Origin: Aureimonas jatrophae
Lineage (GTDB): Bacteria > Pseudomonadota > Alphaproteobacteria > Rhizobiales > Rhizobiaceae
Assembly: GCF_900104035.1 (NCBI RefSeq)
Contig: NZ_FNIT01000001.1
Coordinates: 869,262-933,261 of the forward strand
DNA length: 64,000 bases
Direction: 5' to 3'
Shown piece by piece: positions 24,168 to 36,370 of this stretch. A program made the translations under genes and the position numbers. Position 1 is the stretch's first letter; the number at the start of each line of letters is the position of its first letter. A model generated the notes under the pieces. The model ran no database searches. It worked only from the letters and a program-made list of their open reading frames with translations, and had not been told where the DNA came from.

Positions 24168-26642
<2,475 letters not shown>

Positions 26643-26648
26643 GCGGCG

Positions 26649-28301
26649 TTAGTTCCTGAGCGCGGAGATGGCGGCCACAAGGCCGGCGGTGGAGGAATCG
26701 CGGGACGAGGCGTCGCTCTTGCCCTGGACCACGGGCAGGAGCCCCGTCGCCAGTTCCTTGCCGAGTTCGACGCCCCACTGGTCGTAGGCGTTGATGCCGA
26801 AGAGCTGCGCCTCGACGAAGACGCGGTGTTCGTAGAGCGCGACGAGCCGTCCGAACCGGAAGGGGTCGAGGATCTCGTGCAGGATGGTGATCGAGGGCCG
26901 GTCGCCCGAGAACTCGCGGTGCGGCGCGATGCGCTCGGCATCGGCGGCGGAGCGCCCGGCCTGCAGCAGCTGCTCTCGCGCCTCCTCCATCGTGCGGCCC
27001 TTCATCAAGGCTTCCGACTGCGCCAGGCAGTTGGCGATCAGGAGGTCCTGGTGGATCCTCATGGCCTCGCCGTCCTCGTGGGCGCGAGCGCCCAGGATGA
27101 ACTCCACGGGCACGATGTCGGTGCCCTGGTGGAGAAGCTGGAAGAAGGCGTGCTGGCCGTTCGTGCCCGGCTCGCCCCACACCACGGGGCCCGTCACGGT
27201 CGGTGTCGGGAGGCCGTCGAGGCCGACATGCTTGCCGTTGGACTCCATGTCGAGCTGCTGGAGATAGGCGGGCAGGCGGGCCAGGCGCTGGTCGTAGGGG
27301 ATCACGGCGCGCGTCGGATGGTCCTGCGCCACGCGGTGCCACCAGCCGGCAAGGCCGAGCAGCACGGGAAGGTTCTGCTCCAGGCTCGCGTCCCGGAAGT
27401 GGCGGTCCATGTCGCGCGCGCCGGCCAGGAACTCGCGGAAGCGGGTCTCGCCGATCGCGATCATCAGCGGCAGGCCGATCGCCGACCAGATGGAGTAGCG
27501 ACCGCCCACCCAGTCCCAGAAGCCGAAGGTGCGGTCCTCGCCGATGCCGAAGGCCGCCACCTTGTCGAGCGCCGTGGAGACCGCACAGAAGTGGGCGCCG
27601 ACCGCCGCCTCGCCGAGCTTGTCGGCCACCGCGCGGCGCGCGGTGCCGGCGTTGGTCATGGTCTCGATTGTGGTGAAGGTCTTGGACGCCACGATGAAGA
27701 GCGTCGTCTCGAGGTCGAGCGCCTTCAGCGTGTCGGCCATGTGCGCGCCGTCGATGTTCGACACGAAATGGGCGCGCGGGCCGTCGTGGTAGGGCGAGAG
27801 CGCGATCGTCGCCATGGCGGGGCCGAGGTCGGATCCGCCGATGCCGATGTTGACGATGTCGGTGATACGCCGCCCGGTCGAGCCGGCTATCGAGCCGTCT
27901 CGGATGCCCTCGGCAAAGCGGGCCATGGCGGCCAGAACCGCTTCGATCTCGCCGCCGATCTTGTGCCCCGCCGTCTCGAAGCCATCCTCGGGCCGCGCGC
28001 GCAGCGCGACATGCAGGACGGCCCGTCCTTCCGTCGCGTTGATCGGAGCGCCCGCGAACATGGCGTCGCGCCTGGCCTCCAGCCCGCACTCGTGCGCCAG
28101 CGCCAGAAGCGCGGACAGGTCGTCGCGCGAGAGCGCGCATTTCGACAGGTCGAGAAGAAGGTCGTCGTGGCGAAAGCTGAGATGCTCGAAGCGCTGCGGA
28201 TCGGCTGCGAACAGGGCGCGAATGCCGGTGTCCAGCGCCGTCTTGCCGCGCGCCTGCAGGTTCTCGACCGAAGGGGAGAGGGGCGTCGAGGATGTGTGCA
28301 C
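26649..28301 (-). CDS. pgi: glucose-6-phosphate isomerase
   Basis: Interconverts glucose 6-phosphate and fructose 6-phosphate. The 550-residue protein has [11 protein letters not shown] and [12 protein letters not shown] for phosphate binding, the catalytic [20 protein letters not shown] stretch near 350, and the PGI signature [15 protein letters not shown] near 510. GTG 28301 is the only suitable start; there is no strong Shine-Dalgarno sequence. It heads the glycogen operon, 6 bp before glgP, coupling hexose phosphate flux to storage. Confidence 0.96.
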
Positions 28302-28349
28302 GGGAGATCGGGTCCGTTGTTGCGCCGCAGCAGCCGGCGGGAGACCCGC

Positions 28350-28377
28350 TACATAGCGGACCTCTCGCTAAACCCAA
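28350..28377 (-). promoter_or_regulatory. possible sigma-70 promoter for pgi-glg operon
   Basis: On the minus strand TTGGGT (28377-28372) is followed after 16 bp by TATGTA (28355-28350), which would start transcription about 40 nt before the pgi GTG. The match is moderate and based on eye only. The rest of the 28302-28471 gap shows no gene. Confidence 0.3.
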
Positions 28378-28471
28378 GTTGACGCAGGACCGACGCCTTC
28401 GTCAAATCCGTAGGCGCCCCTAGGAGCCGGCGCGCGCCGTGCTCCGGCCATCCGCCGTGGCACCGGCAAGG

Positions 28472-28781: not shown

Positions 28782-31700
28782 TCAGGGCTTGGGATCGCCG
28801 TATTCGCGCTCGTAGAACACGCCGACCTCGCCGCCGTTCGCCCCCACCGCCGCACGCGCCTTGATGTCGGCGCCCAGTTCGAGATCGATCGACACACGGC
28901 CCGTGGAATCGACGCCGACATAGGTGTTGTCGTTGAGATAGCGCCCGACGCCGACCGCCGCCTGGCCATCGGCCGTGGTGCGGATATCGAGGTCGTCCAC
29001 GCCGAGCTGCGAGCGCAGGTTGTCGAGCAGGCCCGTGGAGCCGCCGACGCCCGCCAGCTGCGCGGCGGCCGAGGCGAGCTGCGCGATCTGGAGCGGCGAC
29101 AGGTCGGCCGTGCCCTGGCCGAAGATCAGGCGCGCCAGCACCTCGTCCTGCGGCAGCGCCGGGGAGGAGGTGAAGGAGAAGCTCGGCGCGTTGGCGGGAC
29201 CCGTGATCGCGACGTTGACCGTCACGCCGTCGCCCGTGTCCGAGGAGGCGAGAAGGTCGAGCGTCGGCACCAGGTCGCCGTTGAAGGTCAGCGTCGCGCG
29301 GCTGAAGTCGAGACGACGCGACAGGAGCTGGAAGCGCCCGCGCTGCAGCTCGAAACCGCCGCTGACGCCCAGCCCCGAGACGGGTCCCTGGACGCGGATC
29401 GTACCGCCGAGCTCGAGATCCAGGCCCCGGCCGCGCACGAAGACGCGGGCCGGCGCGTTCACGGTCACGTCGAGGCGGATGCCGCCGCTCGTGCCGCCGG
29501 TGCCGCCCGAGCCGCTGTCGGGATCGATCTCGCGCAGCTGCCGCAGAACGGCGGGCGGCGTGTTGCGCCGCTCCAGATCGATCTGCGCCAGCGAGGTCGG
29601 CAGGTTCTCGGGAACCTGGATGTTGATCTCGCTGGCATTCACCGTGCCCGACAGAAGGGCATCGCCCGTCAGCGGGCCGGTGAGGCGCAGGGCCGCATCC
29701 AAGCGAACGGTCGCGAACTCGCCGTCCGCGTAGCGCACCTGGTCGCCGGTGATCGTGAGGTCCGCCGGGAAGCCGTTCAGGAAGCCCACGGTCCCCGATA
29801 CGCGCACCGTGCCGCCGGAGCGGACGTTGGCCGTCACGCTCTGCAGCGTCGCCGACTGGCCGTTCAGCGTGATGTTGGCTTGGATGTTCTCCAGGGCAAC
29901 GTTGGCGCCGGTGTCGTTGAAGGTCGCGCCGCTGGTCGTGACCGTGCCCGTGACGTTGGGTGCGGCCGCCGTGCCGGTGACGCGTGCATCGACGCGCACC
30001 ACGCCGCTCACCGAGCGCCCGCCCGTCGCCAGCGTCCGGTTGGCGAGCGCGAGCGGAGCCGTTCCGTTGAGGGCGAGGTCGAAGCTCGGCGTGCCCGCCA
30101 GGCCCACCGAGCCGTTGGCGGTGAACTGGAGCCCGTCTCCGCTCAGACTGCCGTCCACGGTGACCCGTGTGCCGGAATAGGTGCCGCGCGCCGCGACGTC
30201 GAGCGGGCCGACGCCGGCCTCCCGCGTCGGCTGGAGGCTGAGGCTGGCGACGCGCAGGTCGTAGTCGACGGCCGGGGCCGAGACCGAGCCGGTGGCGCGC
30301 ACTGTTCCGTTGAGCGTGCCGGTCGGCGCCAGGTCGGGCACCACCGCGGCCGCGAGCGAGACCGGAACGTTGCGGATATCGGCATTGAGGTCGAGCCGCT
30401 GGCCGACTGAGCCCGACGCCGTGACGCGGCCCGAACCGAGATCCAGCTGCGCGGTCTCGAGCTGCAGCGTGCCACCGGCATAGGAGCCCCGCGCCACCGC
30501 GTCGATCGGCGGTGCGCCGGCCTGGCGGCTCTGCGCTACCGAGACACCGCGCGCCGTGACGTCGAAGCGGGCGCTCGGGTTGTCGAGCGAGCCCGTCGCC
30601 GAGGCTTCACCCGACAGCGTGCCGCGCGCTCCCAAATCCGGGCGCACCGCATCGGCGATCGCGAGCGGCAGGCGGTCGAGCGCCAGGCGCAGGTCGAGCG
30701 TGCGGCCGAGCGAGCCGGACAGCTGCAGCGAACCCTCGCCGACCTGCACCGTGCCGCGCTCGAAGCGAACGGCGCTGTCGGCGATCGTGCCGGCGAGATC
30801 GAGGCGCACCTCGTTGATCCCGGCCTGCCGGAGCGGCGCGGCGGAGAGGCCCTGGCTGGCGAGGTCGAAGCGGCCGCTCGGATCGGCGATCGAGCCGGTC
30901 GCCTCGGCGCTGCCGGAAAGCGTTCCGCGCGCGTCGAGGCCTTCCACGAACCCGTTGGCGAGGGCGGCCGGAAGCTCGGAGATCGTCAGGTCGAGGTCGA
31001 GGTCGCGGCCGATGCTGCCGGTCGCCTCGACCCGGCCCGATCCGACGCTTGCGAGCGCGCGGTCGAGCCGCACCGTCGAGCCGCGGTAGAGGCCGGCGAT
31101 CTCGACCTGGAGCGGGGGAACGCCGGCCCGCGCGACGTCGGCGGCGGTGATGTCGGCGCCGGTCAGGTCGAAGCGCACCGCCGGGTTGGCGATCGAGCCG
31201 GTCGCGGTCGCCGTGCCGTCGATGCGGCCCGAGGCGCCGAGTCCCTCGCGGAAGCCGTTGGCGAGCGCCACGGGCAGGTTGGTGAGCGCCAGATCGAGGT
31301 CGAGGCTCTCGCCCACCGTGCCGCTCGCGTCGATCGTGCCCGAGCCGAGCGAGACGCGGGCCGTCTCCAGCGTCGCGGTCCCGTCGCGCAGGCGGCCCTG
31401 AAGGTTGGCTTCCACCGGGGCGAGGCGCGCCTGGCGCGTTTGCGCGGTCTCGATGCCGGCCGCCTGCAGCGAAAAGTCGACATCGGGCGAGGATGCGGGA
31501 CCGTTCAGCGCGGCCGTGCCGGTGAGAGTGCCCGAGGCGTCGAGACCGGCGACAAAGGGATTGGCGAGCGCGACCGGCAGCTGGCGCAGCGCGAGATCGA
31601 GGTCGAGCGTGTCGCCGGCGGAGCCCGACAACTCGAGCGAGCCCGAGCCGGCGTTCAGGAGAACGCGGCTGATCGTGGTGCGCACCGAGCCGAGCGTGAC

Positions 31701-34145
31701 CGTGGCGGGCTCGGCCAAGGCGAGCGGGGCGTTCGGAACAGCGGCGGTGAGACGGCGCAACTCGACGACGGTCCCCGCATCCGTGACGGCGACATCGCCC
31801 GACAGCTCGGTCGGCACGCCGTTCAGCCGCAGCGAGGCGTTGATGGCGGTGGCCTGATTGATCGCCTCCAGCGCGGCATCGAGACGGGTGATGGCGAGCG
31901 ACCCGGCCTCGATCTCGGCGGCGCGGACCGTTCCCGAGACCTGGGGCCGTTCGAGGTAGTCCGTCACGCGCAGCTGGATGCGGGCCTCGGTGAGGCTGTT
32001 CGCGTTCAGCGTGACGGTCGGCGCCGTCAGGTCGACATCGGCCGAGGGCGTGCCGCCAGGGCCCACCGCGAGGTTCACGGTGCCGCTCAGCGAGCCCGCG
32101 CCCGACTGCCCGGCGAGCGCCAGAAGCGGTGCGGCATCGGGCAGGTCGAGGCGCAACTGGCCGCTGGCGCGGTTCTCGCCATCCAGCGCGACCGTGCCCT
32201 CGACGCGGTTGCGGTCCTGGCGCAGCACGAGGTCGCGCAGCTGACGCACGCCGTTCTCGGTGGACAGCGTCGTGGTGAGCTGGAGCGGTGCGCCGCCATA
32301 GGTGCCGTTCACGGCGACCGTTCCCGAGGGGGCATCCGGCGCGAACGTGCCCTGGATCCGCGCATCGAGGTCGTCGAGACGCCGGCCCGCGACGTCGAGG
32401 CGGGTGGCCGTCGCCCGCAGGTCCACCACCGGCGCGGAGGTGGTGCCGGACGCGTCGAGCGTGAATTCGGCCTCGCCGTCGAGGCCGCTGTTCGCCACCG
32501 CCGCCTGGTTGAGGCGGCCCGAAACGGCGGCGGCGATCGTCTCGCCGTTGAGGCTCGCCTGGCCCGACAGGTCGAGCGCGTCGCCGTCGACGCGGAAGTC
32601 GTTCAGCGCCAGCGCGCCGTCGGCCGTGCGCGAGGCGCGCCCCGCGACGGCGACGCTCGGTCCCACATAGGGAACGGCGTCCGCGGCGAGCGCCTCGGTC
32701 TCGAAGCGGCTCTGGATGTCGAGCGCGAAGGTCGAGAAGTTGAGCGCCGCTTGCCCGGCGAGCGAGAGCTCGGCCGCGCCGGTGGTGAGGTTGGCGTTGT
32801 CGAAGCGGATGCCGTCGGCGGTCAGCGCGCCGCCCGCGCGCAGCGCGATCGGGCCTTCGAGCACCCGCGTCGCGATGCCGGCGGGAACGCTGGCGCTTCG
32901 CGCATCGGCCTGGAGCTGGAGGGGGCCGGCGAGGTTGTTGATGTCGAAGCCGGTGGAGCTCGCGGACGCCGTCAACTCGTTCACGGCATAGTCGGCATAG
33001 CCCGCCGAGCGCGCGGCGGCGGAGAGCTCGATCGCGGCGGCCGAAAACGCCCCGCGCAGCCGCGCGTCGAGGCGCGACAGGTCGATCGCCGTGCGCGATC
33101 CCGCCTCGCCGAGGACGATCGGGATCGGATTGCCCTCGTCGGTACGCAGCGCCACCGTGAGGTCGTTGGCGGAGCCCGACCGGTCGAGGACGCCCTGCGC
33201 CGTCAGGTCGAGATTGCCCGACACGAGATGGCCCGTGTCGATCGCGATCGCGCCGTCGGAGCGCAGGAGAACGTTGGCCTGAAGGCGCAGATCCCGCCCC
33301 ACCGTGCCGAGATAGGCTTCCGGCACGAAGGGCGCGGTGAGGGCGGTGAGGTCGGCTTGGACGCGCCGTCCGTCCGCGCCGTTCTGCGTCGAGGCCTGAA
33401 GGGTCGCCGCGCGCTCCGTGCCCAGATCCAGCGTGCCGTTCGCCGCAAAGGCGTCGAGCGGGCCGTTGCCCTGGATCGAAAGCGCCACCGGCGGAGCGCC
33501 GGGGATCTTGAGAAGGCCCGCCACGAGGCCGCCGGCCGGCTCGCTGGCGTTCACCGCGATCTCCAGACGGTTGTTCGCCGGCTCGAAGCCGAGCCTGAGG
33601 TTCACCTCGCCGGGCTGGTCGAGGCGCCGGATCGCAAGGTTCGCGTCAAGAACCGCCGGATCGGCGACGAGGCGCAGCGACCCCTGCGCCGAAAGCCGGG
33701 CGGCAACGCCCGCGACCGCTTCGCCGAGCGCGAACTCGTTCACCTGGATATTGCGGATGTTGGCCGTGATCGAGGGGAGCGAGAAGCCGCCCTCGGAGGG
33801 CTCGGCCGGGGTCTGGCTCGCCAGCGGCAGGCGAGCGAGCGTGATCTGGCCGGCGGTCAGGTTCTCCACCGAGACGTTCTTGCGCACGAGCGCGAGCGGG
33901 GACCAGTCGAGCGCGAGATCGCGCGCCGTCAGCCACACGCCGTCGCGGTCGGAAACGGTCACCTCCTCGATGCGCAGCGCCCCGCTGAAGGCACCGCTGA
34001 GGCCCTGGATGCGGACCGTGCGGTCGGGTGTCGACAGGAGGTTCTCGAGCTGGCCCGCCAGAAACTGCGCCTTGGCGGGGGCGGCGGGGGCGAGCCAGGC
34101 GAGCGTGAGCGCGACGACGGCGAGAAGGGCTTTGGGAAACCGCAT
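28782..34145 (-). CDS. tamB: translocation and assembly module protein TamB
   Basis: Inner-membrane-anchored, periplasm-spanning partner of TamA, involved in outer membrane protein assembly and probably phospholipid transport. At 1787 residues it is longer than enterobacterial TamB. The N-terminal hydrophobic segment (about 1-26, cleavable-looking or anchor, APAKAQF) is followed by beta-rich repeats typical of AsmA/TamB proteins and a C-terminal TamB/DUF490 domain (about 1440-1787, with GGFELQRGRFQLLSRRLDF and LPQDEVLARLIFGQ). Around residues 830-1370 six repeats of about 101 residues are visible. Start overlaps the tamA stop by one base. Confidence 0.93.
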   Translation of the reverse strand: MRFPKALLAVVALTLAWLAPAAPAKAQFLAGQLENLLSTPDRTVRIQGLSGAFSGALRIEEVTVSDRDGVWLTARDLALDWSPLALVRKNVSVENLTAGQITLARLPLASQTPAEPSEGGFSLPSITANIRNIQVNEFALGEAVAGVAARLSAQGSLRLVADPAVLDANLAIRRLDQPGEVNLRLGFEPANNRLEIAVNASEPAGGLVAGLLKIPGAPPVALSIQGNGPLDAFAANGTLDLGTERAATLQASTQNGADGRRVQADLTALTAPFVPEAYLGTVGRDLRLQANVLLRSDGAIAIDTGHLVSGNLDLTAQGVLDRSGSANDLTVALRTDEGNPIPIVLGEAGSRTAIDLSRLDARLRGAFSAAAIELSAAARSAGYADYAVNELTASASSTGFDINNLAGPLQLQADARSASVPAGIATRVLEGPIALRAGGALTADGIRFDNANLTTGAAELSLAGQAALNFSTFALDIQSRFETEALAADAVPYVGPSVAVAGRASRTADGALALNDFRVDGDALDLSGQASLNGETIAAAVSGRLNQAAVANSGLDGEAEFTLDASGTTSAPVVDLRATATRLDVAGRRLDDLDARIQGTFAPDAPSGTVAVNGTYGGAPLQLTTTLSTENGVRQLRDLVLRQDRNRVEGTVALDGENRASGQLRLDLPDAAPLLALAGQSGAGSLSGTVNLAVGPGGTPSADVDLTAPTVTLNANSLTEARIQLRVTDYLERPQVSGTVRAAEIEAGSLAITRLDAALEAINQATAINASLRLNGVPTELSGDVAVTDAGTVVELRRLTAAVPNAPLALAEPATVTLGSVRTTISRVLLNAGSGSLELSGSAGDTLDLDLALRQLPVALANPFVAGLDASGTLTGTAALNGPASSPDVDFSLQAAGIETAQTRQARLAPVEANLQGRLRDGTATLETARVSLGSGTIDASGTVGESLDLDLALTNLPVALANGFREGLGASGRIDGTATATGSIANPAVRFDLTGADITAADVARAGVPPLQVEIAGLYRGSTVRLDRALASVGSGRVEATGSIGRDLDLDLTISELPAALANGFVEGLDARGTLSGSAEATGSIADPSGRFDLASQGLSAAPLRQAGINEVRLDLAGTIADSAVRFERGTVQVGEGSLQLSGSLGRTLDLRLALDRLPLAIADAVRPDLGARGTLSGEASATGSLDNPSARFDVTARGVSVAQSRQAGAPPIDAVARGSYAGGTLQLETAQLDLGSGRVTASGSVGQRLDLNADIRNVPVSLAAAVVPDLAPTGTLNGTVRATGSVSAPAVDYDLRVASLSLQPTREAGVGPLDVAARGTYSGTRVTVDGSLSGDGLQFTANGSVGLAGTPSFDLALNGTAPLALANRTLATGGRSVSGVVRVDARVTGTAAAPNVTGTVTTSGATFNDTGANVALENIQANITLNGQSATLQSVTANVRSGGTVRVSGTVGFLNGFPADLTITGDQVRYADGEFATVRLDAALRLTGPLTGDALLSGTVNASEINIQVPENLPTSLAQIDLERRNTPPAVLRQLREIDPDSGSGGTGGTSGGIRLDVTVNAPARVFVRGRGLDLELGGTIRVQGPVSGLGVSGGFELQRGRFQLLSRRLDFSRATLTFNGDLVPTLDLLASSDTGDGVTVNVAITGPANAPSFSFTSSPALPQDEVLARLIFGQGTADLSPLQIAQLASAAAQLAGVGGSTGLLDNLRSQLGVDDLDIRTTADGQAAVGVGRYLNDNTYVGVDSTGRVSIDLELGADIKARAAVGANGGEVGVFYEREYGDPKP
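30040..31640 (-). repeat. tandem ~303-bp coding repeats within tamB
   Basis: The motif (L/I)P.A(L/I)A(N/D/A)xxxxxLxAxGxLxGxAxAxG recurs with its alanine/asparagine codon at 31560, 31257, 30954, 30651 and 30348, spacing of exactly 303 bp each time, and a sixth, more diverged unit at 30039 (309 bp). Each unit encodes about 101 residues (for example LPVALANGFREGLGASGRIDG and LPAALANGFVEGLDARGTLSG). Protein similarity is clear while DNA identity is partial, so the duplications are old or have drifted. Confidence 0.8.
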
Positions 34146-36124
34146 CAGAAGGCCTGCCCGATACCGGCGTAGATCTGGAACGAGGAGTCGCGGGGGCCGG
34201 GATCGAGCGGCAGGGCGACATCGACGCGGATCGGGCCGAAACTCGTGATGTAGCGGGCGCCCACGCCCGCCCCCAGCTTGAACTCGCCGAAGTCCGGGGC
34301 GAGGTCGTCGCCGACCGTGCCCCCGTCCACGAAGGGCACGATCTGGATGTTCTCGGTGACGCGGAAGCGCAGCTCCGCCGAGGCCTCGAAGACCGACAGG
34401 CCGCCGATCGGCGTGTCGACGAAGTTCGGGTTGGTGCCGGGAAAGGCGATCGGCGGCGTGTAGGGGCCGATCGACTGGAAGGCGTAGCCGCGCACCGAGC
34501 CGCCGCCGCCGGCATAGAAGCGCCGGTTGTTCGGAATTTCCTCGAGGTCAGCCCCCACGATCGCGCCGTAGCTGACGCGGCCGGCCGCCACGAACCGGCC
34601 CGCGTCGTCGAAGGACAGGTAGGCCGACACGTCGCCGCGCGCCTTGGCGAAGAAGGTGCCGTTCTCGATCTCGTAGGCCGGCTCTGCCGAGAGCTTGGCG
34701 AGGAAGCCCTTGGTCGGGTTCAGCTCGTTGTCGCGTCCGTCATAGGTGTAGACGCCCGGCACCGAGGCGATCAGGAACTCGTTCTCGCCGAAGTAGTCGC
34801 CCACCTTGGCGTATTCGCCGACCACGGCGAGCGTCGCGGTCTGCTGGTCGTCGATCCGGTACTCGACGCCGTTGGACAGGACGATCGCCTCGCGGTCGTA
34901 GGCGAGCGGCTGCTCGCGCAGGGCCGACAGCGAGCCGATATAGACCGAGTCGGGCCCCAAGACGCCCGGCTTGCGAAAGGTCGCGCTCGCCGCATAGTCG
35001 AAGCCGTCGAGGGGGCGGGAGTTCTCCGACAGCGTTTCGGCGCCGATGCGCGCGACCTTACCCTCGATGCGCAGCGACTCGGCGCGGCCGAAGACGTTGC
35101 GGTCCTCCCAGTAGGCGTTGGCGCCGGCGCCTTCCGTATTGGAGAACGTTGCGCCCGCGCCGAACACGAAGCGCTTGCGCTCGGCCACCACGAGCTGGAC
35201 GGGAAGCGTCCCGTCGTCGGCCTGCGCGTCGCTCGCCTTGACGTTGGCGGTGGAGAAGACGTTGAGCCCGACGAGGCGCTTGCGCGCCTTTTCGAGCGCC
35301 GCGACCGAGTAGGTCTCGCCCGGCTGGATGCCGGCCATGTAGGCGACGAAGCCGGGGTTCATCCGGCTCGTGCCCTCGACATAGGTCTGGCCGAAGGGCA
35401 CGACGCCGCCCGGCGACACGCGCAGCGCGACGTCGATGGTCCGCGTGGCCGAGTCCGCCACGACCTCGCGGTCGGTCAGCGCCACAAAGGGGCGGCCCTC
35501 GTCGCGCAGGTCGGTCAGGATGCGCCCCTCGGCGGCGAGGATGCGCACCGATCCCGCGTCTGAGCCCGGCGTCAGACCGTAGGGTGCCGGGTCGATCGGG
35601 CCCCGGTCGTCGCCGCTGATCGCCACCCGGCCGATCGTGAAGAGCGGACCCGGATCGACCGTGATCTCGACCGGCACGGTGCGCGAGGTGTCGAAGGTCG
35701 CGTCCGGCTCCAGCGTTGCGATGTCGCGGCCGTCCACGCGGATCTGGACGAGCCCGTCATAGCGCGCGGCCTCGTAGAGCGCGGCGACGATGCGACGGCG
35801 GTCGGTTCGTGCCTTGGCCAGCAGCCCGAGCGAGCCCGAGACCGGTTCCGCCTCGTCGGCGACGAGCGCGGAGGCGCGCTCCAGCGTGTCCTGCAGGCCG
35901 CTCTCGTCGGGCATGACGGTCAGCGTCGCCTCGTAGCGCACGGGGTCGGGAATGCCGGGGTCCTCGACTTCGGGCGAGGTGAACAGGTTGAACGGGTCGA
36001 GGAAGCGCAGCGGCGAGGCGGCGGGACGCGTGGGGGCCTGCGCTCCGGCAGGCGCGATGGTCGAAGCCAGCAGGAGCGCCGCGCAGGAAACGCGGAGCCA
36101 GGATGCCGTCAGGGTCTGTGCCAA
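34145..36124 (-). CDS. tamA: BamA/TamA family outer membrane protein TamA
   Basis: Outer-membrane Omp85-type barrel that works with TamB. A signal peptide (WLRVSCAALLLASTIAPAGAQA) is followed by POTRA domains (about 80-330) and a 16-strand barrel, including the GGGGSVRGY motif of the L6 loop near residue 545. The C-terminus ends in Phe (AGIGQAF), the usual outer-membrane signature. The TTG at 36124 is chosen because it stands just before the signal peptide; the only upstream ATG (36334) would add 70 residues of non-signal sequence. Stop TGA overlaps the tamB ATG by one base. Confidence 0.9.
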   Translation of the reverse strand: MAQTLTASWLRVSCAALLLASTIAPAGAQAPTRPAASPLRFLDPFNLFTSPEVEDPGIPDPVRYEATLTVMPDESGLQDTLERASALVADEAEPVSGSLGLLAKARTDRRRIVAALYEAARYDGLVQIRVDGRDIATLEPDATFDTSRTVPVEITVDPGPLFTIGRVAISGDDRGPIDPAPYGLTPGSDAGSVRILAAEGRILTDLRDEGRPFVALTDREVVADSATRTIDVALRVSPGGVVPFGQTYVEGTSRMNPGFVAYMAGIQPGETYSVAALEKARKRLVGLNVFSTANVKASDAQADDGTLPVQLVVAERKRFVFGAGATFSNTEGAGANAYWEDRNVFGRAESLRIEGKVARIGAETLSENSRPLDGFDYAASATFRKPGVLGPDSVYIGSLSALREQPLAYDREAIVLSNGVEYRIDDQQTATLAVVGEYAKVGDYFGENEFLIASVPGVYTYDGRDNELNPTKGFLAKLSAEPAYEIENGTFFAKARGDVSAYLSFDDAGRFVAAGRVSYGAIVGADLEEIPNNRRFYAGGGGSVRGYAFQSIGPYTPPIAFPGTNPNFVDTPIGGLSVFEASAELRFRVTENIQIVPFVDGGTVGDDLAPDFGEFKLGAGVGARYITSFGPIRVDVALPLDPGPRDSSFQIYAGIGQAF

Positions 36125-36370
36125 CGCGAACGCTTTCCCACCCGATGTCCGGCGCGCGGGATGGTCGGCCGCGTCCGGGCAACCCCAAGCGACCGATCGG
36201 CCGGCATTCGGGATCCACTTAGCTCTCAAGATGCCGAGTTGGCGCCCGAAGACAACCGGTCTCCTCGACGCGGAGCCACGCGCCGAAGCTTTTGTGGGAC
36301 TTGAGCCACACCTTCCGCCGTCCGTCCACAGCAACCCACAGGCTTGGGTCTATGTCGTTGCAAGGGCACG

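Follow-up and report, generated by a model that had tools for sequence, protein, structure and literature searches.

The TamB protein encoded in the 64-kb stretch of Aureimonas jatrophae DNA analyzed here (hereafter, the window) contains an array of 101-residue repeats, and our results make it probable that these are groove modules amplified in a lengthening specific to TamB, which gave a longer bridge without comparable growth of its sister bridges or of TamA. The role proposed for TamB is transport across the bacterial envelope, of lipids as well as outer-membrane proteins. On the minus strand of the window, a Pfam search placed tamA, tamB, and then pgi. Specifically, tamB (28782..34145, minus strand; 1787 aa) matched PF04357 (TamB) at 216.3 bits (cut-off 22.4; E 1.1e-63) over residues 1436-1782, the conserved C-terminal domain (28800..29840, minus strand), and the sequence match to solved E. 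coli TamB chains was confined to this conserved C-terminal part (residues 1365-1730 of the window TamB). The adjoining tamA (34145..36334, minus strand; PF01103, E 3.9e-46; start codon uncertain) has one base in common with the tamB frame and supplies the Omp85 neighbor expected of a TamB; in all 61 loci compared, tamA likewise lay upstream of tamB and on its strand, with a gap of <60 bp in 47. On the plus strand, very long open frames of 1394 and 910 aa (24198-28382 and 31440-34172) oppose minus-strand genes, pgi and tamB among them, and most likely reflect chance in a high-G+C genome.

The repeat array and its predicted fold

The array comprises four consecutive 101-residue units and a fifth of 106, all in frame, at residues 851-1360 (30066-31595, minus strand). 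Units 1 to 4 (31293..31595, residues 851-951; 30990..31292, residues 952-1052; 30687..30989, residues 1053-1153; and 30384..30686, residues 1154-1254) scored 118, 116, 113, and 119 bits, respectively, with a hidden Markov model (HMM) of the unit, and unit 5 (30066..30383, residues 1255-1360) scored 92 bits. By position, just before the C-terminal part, unit 5 corresponds to the only unit that short relatives have. The array is flanked by a degenerate sixth unit (29775..30065, residues 1361-1457, 30 bits) and, ahead of unit 1, by a partial copy (31596..31703, residues ~815-850), as similarity at a lag of 101 starts at ~815; a weak partial match ahead of the unit also occurs in several one-unit relatives. 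The motif heptapeptides LPVALAN (residue 856), LPVALAN (957), LPAALAN (1058), LPLAIAD (1159), and VPVSLAA (1260) are spaced by 101 residues, or 303 bp, with APLALAN, in the degenerate unit, a further 309 bp on. A sequence-only reading had described this spacing, five copies at 303 bp and a sixth at 309 bp, and its motif codons lie where it put them, its coordinates being the low-coordinate ends of the heptapeptides. Its figure of 101 residues per unit was borne out when TamB was compared with itself (BLOSUM62, lags 20-699) and with 300 shuffles: the top lags were 101, 202, and 303, with 404 fifth, and lag 101 scored -141, while the best of all shuffles over the same lags reached -527. The repeat extends far beyond the motif, as whole units.

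Ungapped DNA identity does not exceed 60% between any two of units 1 to 4, which argues against a recent origin of the array, and Tandem Repeats Finder reported no repeat in the DNA. Between the window and a relative (locus L003), dN/dS was 0.10 in the array, 0.19 before it, and 0.06 after it; in this one pair tested, the array is under purifying selection.

An AlphaFold model of two units (units 1 and 2; pLDDT 87.4, pTM 0.78) predicted that each unit folds into six beta-strands and two short helices, in line with the units being structural modules. Its input (alignment A4) comprised six sequences, unit pairs as well as single units, taken from the window and Aureimonas sp. AU4, with two stray residues in the two single-unit rows; two unit-group alignments (A2 and A3) were left unfolded for being partly out of register. 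Across 136 units of relatives, restricted to those of precisely 101 aa and excluding last units, hydrophobic residues alternate along much of the strands, and seven Gly and one Pro are invariant. The sequence-only reading had described TamB as a long beta-structured tube; in the model, the two units are predicted to form consecutive strands. Modeling the whole array (616 aa) from two sequences gave pLDDT 34; this model was discarded, and we therefore infer the shape of the array from two units.

A Foldseek search with the two-unit model found nothing in the PDB with an E-value of 0.001 or lower, and neither TamB nor VPS13-type bridges were among the best 50 of its 243 rows, which is no evidence against the fold. 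In a second structural comparison, apolipoprotein B, another lipid-holding beta protein, led the ranking (Z 10.2; rmsd 8.3; 175 aligned); a solved TamB (9xdd_B; Z 6.8, rmsd 4.5, 165 aligned) stood among many beta-barrels, which makes the predicted fold's match to TamB non-discriminating. With beta-strands spaced by 0.48 nm, six strands would give a rise of 2.9 nm per unit. Further, E. coli TamB (1259 aa) is given a length of 17.8 nm (AlphaFold) or 24.6 nm (stretched) in the available part of PMC11014939, and therefore 101 aa would span 1.4-2.0 nm.

Copy number and TamB length among relatives

TamB was present in 21 of 21 genomes of the genus and in 111 of 121 of the family. From these, we fetched 20 genus loci (19 of which yielded tamB), 40 family loci, most of them picked because their frames are long, and 20 more from the family whose frames are short; given this choice by frame length, the share of long TamBs in the sample is not that of the family. 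Start codons were set by alignment or a hydrophobicity rule (by hand in L083), such that lengths may be off by some residues. One locus (L079) had no tamB as fetched, its genome carrying the gene on two contigs, and L076, a repeat of L003, was dropped. Aureimonas sp. AU4, a named relative from a protein search, was counted once among the 30 proteins of the window's clade; this separately deposited sequence (92% identity) has the same array.

Within this clade, TamB carries four to nine units, and its length climbs a regular ladder: 1682 aa with four units, 1780-1796 with five, 1885-1891 with six, 1990 with seven, 2084-2095 with eight, and 2184-2187 with nine. The relationship is linear (100.2 aa per unit, r 0.9997, 30 proteins), and the line extrapolates to 1386 aa at one unit, where 20 short relatives measure 1384-1407 aa; 19 of these have one unit of >50 bits, and the other has one of 46 bits. 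Hence, copy number sets TamB length among the relatives, in exact steps. The 1787 aa of the window's TamB, which the sequence-only reading had called long, is indeed so relative to E. coli (1259 aa) and to other families of the class, in which 18 of 20 TamBs measured 1390-1548 aa and the other two 1135 and 1187 aa, the latter truncated at a contig end. Within its own clade, the protein is ordinary, 18 of the 30 having five units, as do 16 of the 19 genus loci with tamB.

When 19 of the 30 proteins were compared, the best outside match of each window unit was the same-numbered unit of another five-unit protein, which argues that the five-unit array predates the five-unit group. Among TamBs of seven to nine units, central units were clearly or slightly more alike within one protein in L093, L086, and, in part, L084, and the best match usually lay in another protein in L082, L083, L087, and L089; with this within-protein likeness in only some species, the comparison points to no one order of duplication. 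Lower counts also occur, with five units (L108) beside seven and four (L066) beside five.

The family has reached long TamBs by other routes as well. A separate group of 12 proteins (1531-1654 aa) has two or three units of ~105 aa, and L092 (2015 aa) combines six 107-aa units with one of 105 aa. A single internal duplication, at a lag of 477-622 aa, occurs in each of 13 more long TamBs (1860-2001 aa), with ungapped lag scores of z 5.5 to 23.2; by the same measure, unduplicated short relatives reach z 4.4. The boundaries of these blocks vary between lineages. In L094, an in-frame duplication of 1.85 kb lies inside tamB, and its copies differ in 28 codons and are 97% identical in DNA, which marks it as recent. 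In a tree of the copies, five of the 13 pairs were exclusive sisters (L094, L095, L097, L102, and L106), L103 and L104 seemingly go back to one common event, L098, L099, L101, and L105 to another, older one, and the L091 and L096 pairs could not be placed. This fits several independent block duplications, a pattern that gene conversion could mimic. No clear internal duplication that would explain its length was found in L100 (1844 aa; best z 2.8). Outside the family, a class sample had a match in 28 of 86 genomes, and the 20 TamBs fetched from it had no such duplication (best z 3.8). By parsimony on a tree of TamB's two ends (80 rows; L100 left out of the counts), base and long (>1480 aa) forms interchange at least 13 times, with 29 of the 77 inner branches poorly supported; the neighbors L106 (1860 aa) and L148 (1392 aa) differ by 468 aa and are joined with a support of 98.

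Judged by eye, the N-terminus of the window's TamB (34065-34145) resembles a cleavable signal peptide (...APAKA, then QF), as does that of the two- to three-unit TamBs (e.g., PALAQD), and the block-duplicated TamBs start with a plain hydrophobic anchor. If such a signal peptide is cleaved, TamB would be without fixation in the inner membrane.

Partner and sister proteins beside TamB length

The TamA match stayed at 583-612 residues across all 61 loci. The large AsmA frame, of which one was hand-picked by size in each of 42 genomes and measured stop to stop, ranged from 1210 to 1415 aa while TamB ranged from 1373 to 2187 aa. The two lengths correlate weakly and positively (rho 0.32, p 0.04, uncorrected for kinship): AsmA measures 1289-1391 aa in the eight genomes whose TamB reaches 2080 aa or more and 1262-1273 aa in the three whose TamB is below 1420 aa, a shift of tens of residues against ~700-800 in TamB. 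YhdP frames, with a value taken in 25 of the 42 genomes, measured 1119-1239 aa and did not correlate with TamB (rho 0.09, p 0.66). A YhdP profile built from 10 relatives matched in 24 of 25 genomes and spanned 3.2-3.4 kb in 23, long-TamB genomes included. A loss of YhdP in the eight- and nine-unit clade, considered when a Pfam model matched in 30 of 42 genomes, was dropped given these profile matches; the one genome of the 25 without a match, G042, has a nine-unit TamB. In two genomes (G020:C1:109239-112607 and G107:C22:97860-101243), the match crosses one TGA, which may be the gene's own stop.

A rather unlikely alternative to a lengthening that has an effect is that groove modules are easily duplicated and tolerated, the anatomy being the same and the length without consequence. 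Such neutral expansion could produce the same ladder, and it would sit well with modules that, in the predicted structure, look self-contained, with the low unit counts found beside higher ones, and with the recurrence of block duplications. It is less easily squared with the five units of most genus loci, with the purifying selection on the array in the pair tested, and with the absence of lengthening in AsmA and YhdP frames.

The sequence-only reading had proposed that repeat number sets periplasmic length, and this stands insofar as copy number sets the length of TamB; its extension to the width of the whole periplasm is not supported. That the two membranes of a species are spaced according to repeat number, whether the repeats follow this distance or determine it, is improbable: although TamB length moves in discrete steps and AsmA follows it weakly, AsmA shifts by tens of residues where TamB shifts by ~700-800, YhdP and TamA do not follow, and the gap between L106 and L148 is not what a slowly changing envelope would predict. 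The ruler idea survives only in a TamB-specific form; TamB length may possibly serve local spacing or slack. Finally, that a Gly-, Ala-, and Leu-rich protein of a high-G+C genome acquired its periodicity by chance or low complexity, or by an assembly error, is refuted by the shuffles and by the same array in AU4 and further relatives, and its probability is negligible.

Under modular lengthening specific to TamB, each 303-bp repeat would encode a 101-residue module of the beta-groove, predicted to hold six strands and a pair of short helical turns. In the ancestral TamB, a single module would have lain beside the conserved C-terminal part, as it does today in relatives of ~1390 aa. In-frame tandem duplication, probably through recombination between repeats, would have raised this to five copies ahead of the diversification of the window's group, and the same process may have led to four to nine copies in sister lineages. 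The modules presumably stack along one groove from the inner membrane to TamA, each adding ~1.4-2.9 nm of hydrophobic groove, and the longer lipid- or client-conducting bridge could provide more reach, slack, or lipid capacity, with the lengthening confined to TamB and no comparable growth in AsmA, YhdP, or TamA. More tentatively, TamB length may even be a repeatedly selected trait in this family, in which independent amplifications (of units of 101, 105, or 107 aa) and block duplications (lags of 477-622 aa) took a bridge of ~1390 aa to 1530-2190 aa with partner and sister bridges near constant; if true, this would provide a natural series in which to study the effect of lipid-bridge length.

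Comparison with known systems

One to nine modules in one gene, with near-unchanged partners, make it testable in related bacteria whether the length of an AsmA- or VPS13-type lipid bridge must match the gap it crosses. A search of mostly open-access literature, with bioRxiv outside its scope, found no title or abstract opening on repeat-number variation in TamB; we also drew on the available parts of PMC12800296, PMC12436622, PMC10787603, and PMC10900882. As far as the accessible text goes, Heinz et al. 2015 describe TamB length as relatively consistent, with few very long exceptions (PMC4494059).

Like TamB of the E. coli translocation and assembly module, the window's protein has a C-terminal PF04357 domain, an adjacent tamA, and, in the modeled part, strands predicted to form a groove; unlike it, it is 528 aa longer and carries an amplified 101-aa module. 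Another rhizobial TamB is MapB of Brucella, for which the portion of PMC6377625 available gives 1579 aa and a second partial DUF490 match at 916-1088. MapB would fit the two- to three-unit class, which differs from the window in having ~105-aa units and no 101-aa array. YhdP and the large AsmA, encoded by the same genomes, are likewise bridge-like proteins of the AsmA superfamily but, unlike TamB, are nearly constant in length in those searched. A parallel in mode lies in the eukaryotic repeating-beta-groove lipid bridges VPS13C and VPS13D, which, according to the part of PMC7613979 at hand, gained length by internal duplication of groove modules (~500 residues), with a link between VPS13 length and bridged width suggested there but unstudied. 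There, as probably here, internal duplication of groove modules lengthens a bridge, but VPS13 belongs to another superfamily by name and sequence, and the present series is bacterial and proceeds in steps of one module.
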